Source: a candidate division SR1 bacterium (lineage in GTDB: Bacteria; Patescibacteriota; Gracilibacteria; Absconditabacterales; Absconditicoccaceae). From it: a stretch of 42,223 bases of DNA. The stretch covers positions 25,150 through 67,372 of the forward strand of contig JAPLUU010000011.1 of assembly GCA_026397515.1 (NCBI GenBank), in the 5' to 3' direction. The notes under the pieces are model-generated. The model had not been told where the DNA came from. It made no database searches and was given only the letters and a program-made list of their open reading frames with translations. Below are positions 18,381 through 31,253 of the stretch, piece after piece. The position numbers and the translations under genes were made by a program. Position 1 is the first letter of the stretch; the number at the start of each line of letters is the position of its first letter.

Positions 18381-18410
18381 GAAAAAATCTGACTGAGTTG
18401 GCCAGATTTT
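18381..18410 (-). terminator. Rho-independent terminator downstream of atpC
   Basis: AAAATCTG pairs with CAGATTTT around an 11-nt loop; on the minus strand it continues into TTC and TTTT. It would end a transcript that leaves atpC (stop at 18581) and crosses the hairpin element at 18416-18490. Confidence 0.6.
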
Positions 18411-18415
18411 ATTCC

Positions 18416-18490
18416 CTATAGAAATTTAAACAATTTCTATAGATAGAAACGACGTGAAAGTTCTTTGTGGAACTTTCTGCGTCTTATTCT
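18416..18490. repeat. Two-hairpin element, copy 1
   Basis: Read on the plus strand: CTATAGAAATT (18416-18426) pairs perfectly with AATTTCTATAG (18432-18442). Next comes GATAGAAAC, then GACG (18451-18454) and GAAAGTTC (18456-18463), pairing with GAACTTTC (18470-18477) and CGTC (18480-18483), then TTATT. A second copy at 31137-31213 keeps the joints and changes both stems in a compensatory way. It lies between atpC and the TRM11-like gene. Strand of action unknown. Confidence 0.75.
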
Positions 18491-18580
18491 ATCCCTAGTC
18501 ATGATCATACAAAATATAAAGTTGCTAAACAAATACTTTATACATCCTGACAATATATCTCTTATTATATACTCGGCTTT

Positions 18581-31089: not shown

Positions 31090-31136
31090 TCTCAACTTTA
31101 GTACCCGGGTGCAAACTTACTTAGAAAAATTTGTTT

Positions 31137-31213
31137 ATCTATAGGAATTTTTAAAATAATTCCTATAGATAAAAACGACGTTGCAATCCTTTTGGGGATT
31201 GCCTGCGTCTTAT
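31137..31213. repeat. Two-hairpin element, copy 2
   Basis: ATCTATAGGAATT (31137-31149) pairs perfectly with AATTCCTATAGAT (31158-31170). Then AAAAAC, GACG (31177-31180) and GCAATCC (31183-31189) pair with GGATTGC (31196-31202) and CGTC (31206-31209), then TTATT. Compared with copy 1 at 18416-18490, both stems differ at paired positions while the joints ACGACGT and TGCGTCTTATT are kept. A further fragment TTTCTACCTATAGAAA lies at 31235-31250. The flanking genes run plus here and minus at copy 1. Confidence 0.75.
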
Positions 31214-31253
31214 TTTATGAATTTTTCATAGAAGTTTCTACCTATAGAAAAAT

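Follow-up and report, generated by a model that had tools for sequence, protein, structure and literature searches.

In IS200/IS605 and REP elements, the cut sites are chosen by pairing with guides located 5' of hairpins (PMC8266576). For the GTAG REPs and REPINs, this guide is a tetranucleotide 5' of the hairpin that selects the cut site (PMC8266576). CGTC-tagged REPs are units of 20-40 bp with stems of 8-9 bp, loops of 4-5 nt and an unpaired CGTC (Di Nocera et al. 2013, PMC3733652), and candidate division SR1 is not among the phyla for which they have been reported (PMC3733652). Our search of the literature, whose coverage was partial, found no description of an element of the type presented here in SR1 or Gracilibacteria. 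Two copies of it lie in the window, i.e. the whole stretch of 42,223 nt that was analysed. We propose that this SR1 element is mobile DNA, short and non-autonomous, and that it probably moves as single-stranded DNA by means of a trans-acting mobiliser. In the following, G000 is the genome of the window, the other G numbers designate relatives, and L numbers are contig stretches.

The two copies in the window

Copy 1 is a mobile hairpin element of 77 nt (18415..18491, + strand; covariance-model match of 77 bits) between an atpC-like gene on one side and a methyltransferase-like gene on the other, and its site is empty in G004 and G008. Its left flank, on the target side, is the T-rich run GATTTTATTC (18405..18414, +), which is common to the empty site of G004. 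The left-end hairpin, hairpin 1 (CTATAGAAATT..AATTTCTATAG; 18416..18442, +), is placed by folding and is variable in the family. It leads to a middle 'guide', GATAGAA (18442..18448, +), complementary to the 3'-end TTCTATC and covarying with it at the variable position (AU45/GC7/GU7). The right-end hairpin, hairpin 2, consists of GACG, a variable stem and CGTC (18451..18483, +; folds and covariation), and the copy finishes with the 3' end TTATTCTA (18484..18491, +), conserved in the family, the right limit of which is set by the empty site. Copy 2 has 80 nt (about 31139..31218, +; covariance-model match of 77 bits) and corresponds to an element-free site in G002, G004, G006 and G008. Its hairpin 1 is longer, as the left flank TTTAT(C) pairs with the guide GATAAA (31134..31173, +; fold and stem limits), and is followed by the guide GATAAAA (31168..31174, +) and by hairpin 2 (31177..31209, +; fold and covariation).

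The two-hairpin fold is much more stable than dinucleotide shuffles of the same copies (z = -6.1 for copy 1 and -8.1 for copy 2). The sequence-only reading had described two-hairpin copies whose stems change in pairs within a conserved frame, and both features were found as stated when the copies were compared. It had overlooked a third helix seen in the alignment and the fold, which encloses hairpin 2 and is formed by GATARAA on its immediate 5' side and TTYTATC on its immediate 3' side. The ends that it had proposed, 18416-18490 and 31137-31213, are shifted by the empty sites of sister species to 18415-18491 and about 31139-31218.

Distribution of the family

More copies were found by searching the genome with a pattern and the copy sequence, and a covariance model was then built from five of them. 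Such a model had been suggested by the sequence-only reading as a check, and it did retrieve further copies both in G000 and in SR1 relatives. G000 harbours between 11 (E<=0.001) and 13 (E<0.01) copies; the element described as 'two-copy' is real, and its count was too low. Among the 59 relatives searched with the model, all nine members of the genus have at least one match, marginal in one case, and some further genera within that family are also positive, though few, with a maximum of about 20 copies per genome. Outside the family, the model gave two marginal matches and no others. In the whole SR1 family, 15 of 49 genomes are positive. The copies number about 130 in all. A scan of 257 Gb of GTDB genomes with an exact pattern yielded 37 stretches, in SR1-type assemblies only; those that are named belong to candidate division SR1, including the complete genome RAAC1_SR1_1 (CP006913), and the others are MAG records. 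The element is restricted to a single family within candidate division SR1 (Absconditabacteria).

As for its origin, no viral contig matched the exact core pattern, and a viral source was rejected on that basis. No Rfam family matched above its gathering score, nor did two long forms at a permissive E-value, and a known RNA family was dropped as an explanation. In G004, most of the fetched copies have the same hairpin-2 core and few other changes, which suggests that the element has spread recently in that species.

Architecture and covariation

From 5' to 3', the family presents a host T-run (TTTTAT or TTTTAC), hairpin 1, GATAAAA, hairpin 2 and the 3' end TTATTTTA, conserved as TTATTTTA(T). 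Hairpin 1 is highly variable and occurs as CTATAGGAATT..AATTCCTATAG, as CACATAGGAATTTC..AATTCCTATTC with an additional CAGC..GCTG, or as a short CCAGC..GCTGG. Hairpin 2 has a fixed GACG/CGTC base and an inner stem that is free to vary. Most elements measure about 66-105 nt, and internal modules bring others up to about 190 nt. In these longer forms, about 85 nt of additional structured sequence separate the hairpins, or hairpin 2 contains 50 additional nt. Forms of the first kind make up a subfamily, GATATAG..ACTACATAT..TTCAATCAAAAATA..ATATTTTTGAAGGA, with members in L110, L111, L117, L081:4071-4175, L075, L082:5279 and L076:15061. Three copies (L080:5467-5571, L081:4071-4175 and L091:2953-3056) share a conserved addition within hairpin 2, ACTCTYACATCC..GGTCGAGAAAGAAG, which has a varying stem of its own.

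Covariation was assessed on a structure-free alignment of 60 copies, in which 93% of the pair cells are paired. Hairpin 2 covaries strongly: changes on both sides were found in 15 of 19 pairs; shuffles gave 7.4, and none of 500 reached the observed value. In control structures slid along the same alignment, 36-54% of the cells are paired and five to nine pairs changed on both sides. The selection for structure advanced by the sequence-only reading is thereby supported. Nearly all 60 copies have CGTC base-paired with GACG. Mismatches in the inner stem comprise 11 G-T and 14 A-C and give no sign of selection on the RNA strand in particular. Selection on an RNA would predict an excess of G-T, and the 'independent small RNA' also envisaged by the sequence-only reading is not supported.

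The GATAAAA segment has two complements, the target T-run and TTTTATC, the 3' end of the element itself. The guide and the 3' end covary in the 60 copies (UA58/CG2 and AU45/GC7/GU7). Two copies (L088:15369 and L077:3634) have GACAAA, with G at the corresponding position on either side. The left flank is usually TTTTAT, and thus complementary to the guide, with exceptions; a three-way change is found in two copies only. In copy 1, the left flank TTATTC pairs imperfectly with the guide.

Empty sites and mobility

Orthologous sites in sister species were located with two composite protein queries. For copy 1, the empty site reads GATTTTATTC|TCCCTAGTC in G004 and CTTTATTC|TCCCTAGTC in G008, and in the window the two halves are separated by the 77-nt element. 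At L089, CCCACATTTTTTAT|ATAGTAGC in G004 corresponds to CCCACATTTTTTAT|66-nt element|ATAACG in G000. L086 has an empty site in G004 (CTTTTAT|ATATTAT) and L085 a spacing-matched one in G008. Compared with empty orthologous sites, the insertions are clean and of 66-80 nt, both window copies included, and the element is absent from most of the orthologous sites examined. These comparisons establish insertion at orthologous sites, exact deletion in several lineages being less likely. Given such clean insertions, the element is mobile, which sets it apart from a leader, a terminator or a fixed RNA gene.

The dispersed similar copies at unrelated sites and the element-free orthologous sites with exact ends are those of a non-autonomous, MITE-like element. 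Terminal inverted repeats, as in classical MITEs, were not found, the ends being two unlike hairpins. No consistent target duplication was detected either, and in many copies the flank is unlike the 3' end of the element (TTATTC, TTCT, CTTGT). As left flanks often differ from that 3' end, we assign the repeated TTTTAT to the element itself rather than to a target duplication. None of the fetched copies is autonomous, with a gene between the ends; their left-end hairpins adjoin a right end, and an autonomous form was ruled out among them. The proposal of a 'REP/MITE relic' thus holds for its first part, given the many copies, the covariation, the precise empty sites and the lack of an Rfam match. 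'Relic' is too weak a word for some species, in view of the probable recent spread in G004.

An integron-like recombination site, i.e. a folded site of the attC kind whose terminal part varies, would account for the conserved outer frame around a variable inner stem and for same-orientation copies in series, at times one gene apart. However, the empty sites show insertion of the element alone, with no gene accompanying it, which largely excludes this possibility. Furthermore, the two hairpins are dissimilar, no attC-type core sites were seen on reading the sequence by eye, and copies are scattered over the whole chromosome. We regard such a site as extremely improbable.

Target sites, gene context and orientation

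Insertion takes place on the 3' side of T-runs (TTTTAY), which in many cases belong to intrinsic terminators, and the left-flank consensus is TTTTTTAY. A stable terminator-like hairpin is present within 40 nt of 43% of the left flanks, versus 17% of other TTTTTAY sites of the same loci. For the 74 copies with both neighbouring genes called, the contexts are (+,+) 31, (-,+) 16, (-,-) 14 and (+,-) 13. The orientation relative to flanking genes, reported to differ between the two window copies, therefore does so throughout the family. With the right-hand gene on the opposite strand in 27 of the 74 copies, a leader or attenuator of one gene was ruled out.

Spacing to the right-hand gene is tight, be it to an ATG 15-21 nt downstream or to a stop codon; when this gene is convergent, its stop codon lies at the TTA of the element (gap -4) in 14 of about 27 cases. 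This position would be expected if the stop codon of the convergent gene had been the target. Insertion would occur behind the TTA that forms this stop codon (TAA) on the opposite strand, and as the element ends in TTA, the stop would be rebuilt. At L088, corresponding to G000:C15 48000-67000, and at L121, small paralogous proteins (MKKIFWTT.., M.TEKK..NMKM..) are encoded in tandem, and the element occupies their junctions in more than one species.

A regulatory RNA or a bidirectional terminator that is maintained, with incidental gains and losses, might explain the tight spacing to the right-hand gene, be it to its ATG or to its stop, and the occupation of some positions in more than one species, e.g. 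between paralogous genes (G000, G002) and upstream of pheS (G000, G033). We nevertheless consider it very unlikely. Many copies have no downstream sense gene, as the distribution of contexts indicates, most orthologous sites examined lack the element, a terminator scan flags hairpin 2 of neither window copy, and the hairpin-2 core shared by most fetched G004 copies also argues against it.

Neighbouring copies of the mobile element on a contig are alike in orientation in 33 of 38 cases (P 2e-6). GC skew usually marks the replication strand. We used third codon positions for this purpose, the whole-base GC skew of G033 being misleading owing to gene-strand effects. At these positions, G is enriched on the element strand for 59 of 76 copies and, counted by contig, for 37 of 49 (P 2e-4). 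If the skew has its customary meaning, the element strand would tend to correspond to the lagging-strand template. In G033, the sole complete genome, five of nine copies agree with the skew mapped along the chromosome, and the strand bias is not clearly seen.

Search for a mobilising enzyme

No transposase gene was found between or beside element ends, and no Y1 gene with the ends of this element was identified. PF01797 has no match in G002, G004, G006, G007 or the complete G033. A more sensitive RAYT model gave one match in G006 and nothing convincing in G002, G004, G007 and G033. TnpB (PF07282) is absent from ten element-rich genomes, and a link with it was ruled out on this ground.

Y1 genes are present in some SR1 genomes, among them an IS200-like one in G008, and are weakly associated with the element, being somewhat commoner in element-bearing genomes (Fisher P 0.057). 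The Y1 gene of G000 is RAYT-like (C14:6034-6390; NF047646, 69.7 bits). Its presence, together with the weak association, might designate it as the mover of the element, but the gene is flanked by another palindrome, CACCCGGGTG, no copy of the element was found within 1.5 kb of it, and the four genomes without a convincing RAYT match carry the element nonetheless. This assignment therefore appears very doubtful. No RAYT gene flanked by the present element, as for a GTAG REP, was found. The RAYT genes of G005:C37 and G022:C4 are likewise flanked by CACCCGGGTG. Many such palindromes surround the RAYT-like Y1 genes of G000:C14 (L268, 5883-8780), G005:C37 (L259) and G022:C4 (L263). Their core, ACCCGGGT, occurs seven times in 12 kb around the G000 RAYT gene versus twice in 133 kb of other fetched stretches. 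Judging from these sequences, the palindromes and the RAYT genes apparently form a separate REP system of SR1. One ACCCGGGT is located at 31103-31110, about 30 nt upstream of copy 2, with a chance expectation of 0.02 in the window.

A structured RNA that lands downstream of terminators, as group IIC introns do, with a reverse transcriptase acting in trans, was also considered. Insertion in sense orientation behind terminator T-runs, the several hairpin modules with conserved loops, and a pairing of left flank and guide reminiscent of IBS-EBS pairing are in line with a retro-mobile RNA. However, reverse transcriptase (RVT_1) has no match in eight of ten element-rich genomes, including the complete G033. 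The negative Rfam searches, at a permissive E-value for the two long forms, and the inner stem devoid of a G-T excess over A-C also make this scenario most unlikely.

Proposed mechanism

The T-run targets, the covariation of the guide, and the orientation and strand bias recall the single-strand transposition of IS200/IS605 and REP elements. By analogy, the SR1 element would move as single-stranded DNA, its strand being exposed as a single strand on the lagging-strand template. A transposase would bind hairpins 1 and 2. Pairing of GATAAAA with the target T-run would then set the left cut, and pairing of the same segment with the 3' end of the element the right cut, so that one guide would pick both cut sites. 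The mobiliser would most likely be an HUH transposase of the Y1 type that works in trans; in several genomes it would have been lost afterwards, or overlooked.

A more specific model, in which a single DNA guide serves for both cuts of a single-strand transposon and an undescribed SR1 enzyme moves it in trans by harmlessly targeting terminators and stop codons, is in our opinion unlikely as a whole. If the interpretation of the preceding paragraphs is right, the family would illustrate how a selfish element of small size spreads through streamlined genomes via harmless landing places, behind terminators or at stops that are restored. It would also provide a clean natural case for the coevolution of one guide with its two cut sites.

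Comparison with known systems

Like CGTC-tagged REPs, the SR1 elements are dispersed extragenic hairpins with CGTC at one end and no dedicated transposase known, found mostly between codirectional or convergent genes. Unlike them, they have CGTC paired with GACG, two unlike hairpins and a length of 66-105 nt or more; the unpaired CGTC, 8-9 bp stem and 4-5 nt loop of those REPs are not found. Like the GTAG REPs and REPINs associated with RAYT (TnpA-REP), they are small and hairpin-forming, and movement as single-stranded DNA is assumed for both, but they have neither GTAG nor a linked RAYT. As in IS200/IS605 and their MITEs, each end has its own, dissimilar subterminal hairpin, and insertion takes place 3' of a short T-rich site that is not duplicated; the probable pairing between guide and cut site, and the tendency towards the lagging-strand template, also recall these elements. 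In contrast with IS200/IS605, one internal guide apparently serves both ends, no tnpA is linked, and no tnpB is present in the ten genomes tested. As for integron attC sites, they are also folded single-strand sites with a variable inner part, whereas the SR1 element has two hairpins and no gene moving along with it. The element works like REP and IS200/IS605-derived elements, yet it belongs to none of the described classes: the lack of terminal inverted repeats and target duplication sets it apart from classical MITEs, its paired CGTC from CGTC REPs, and the lack of a linked RAYT from GTAG REPs.
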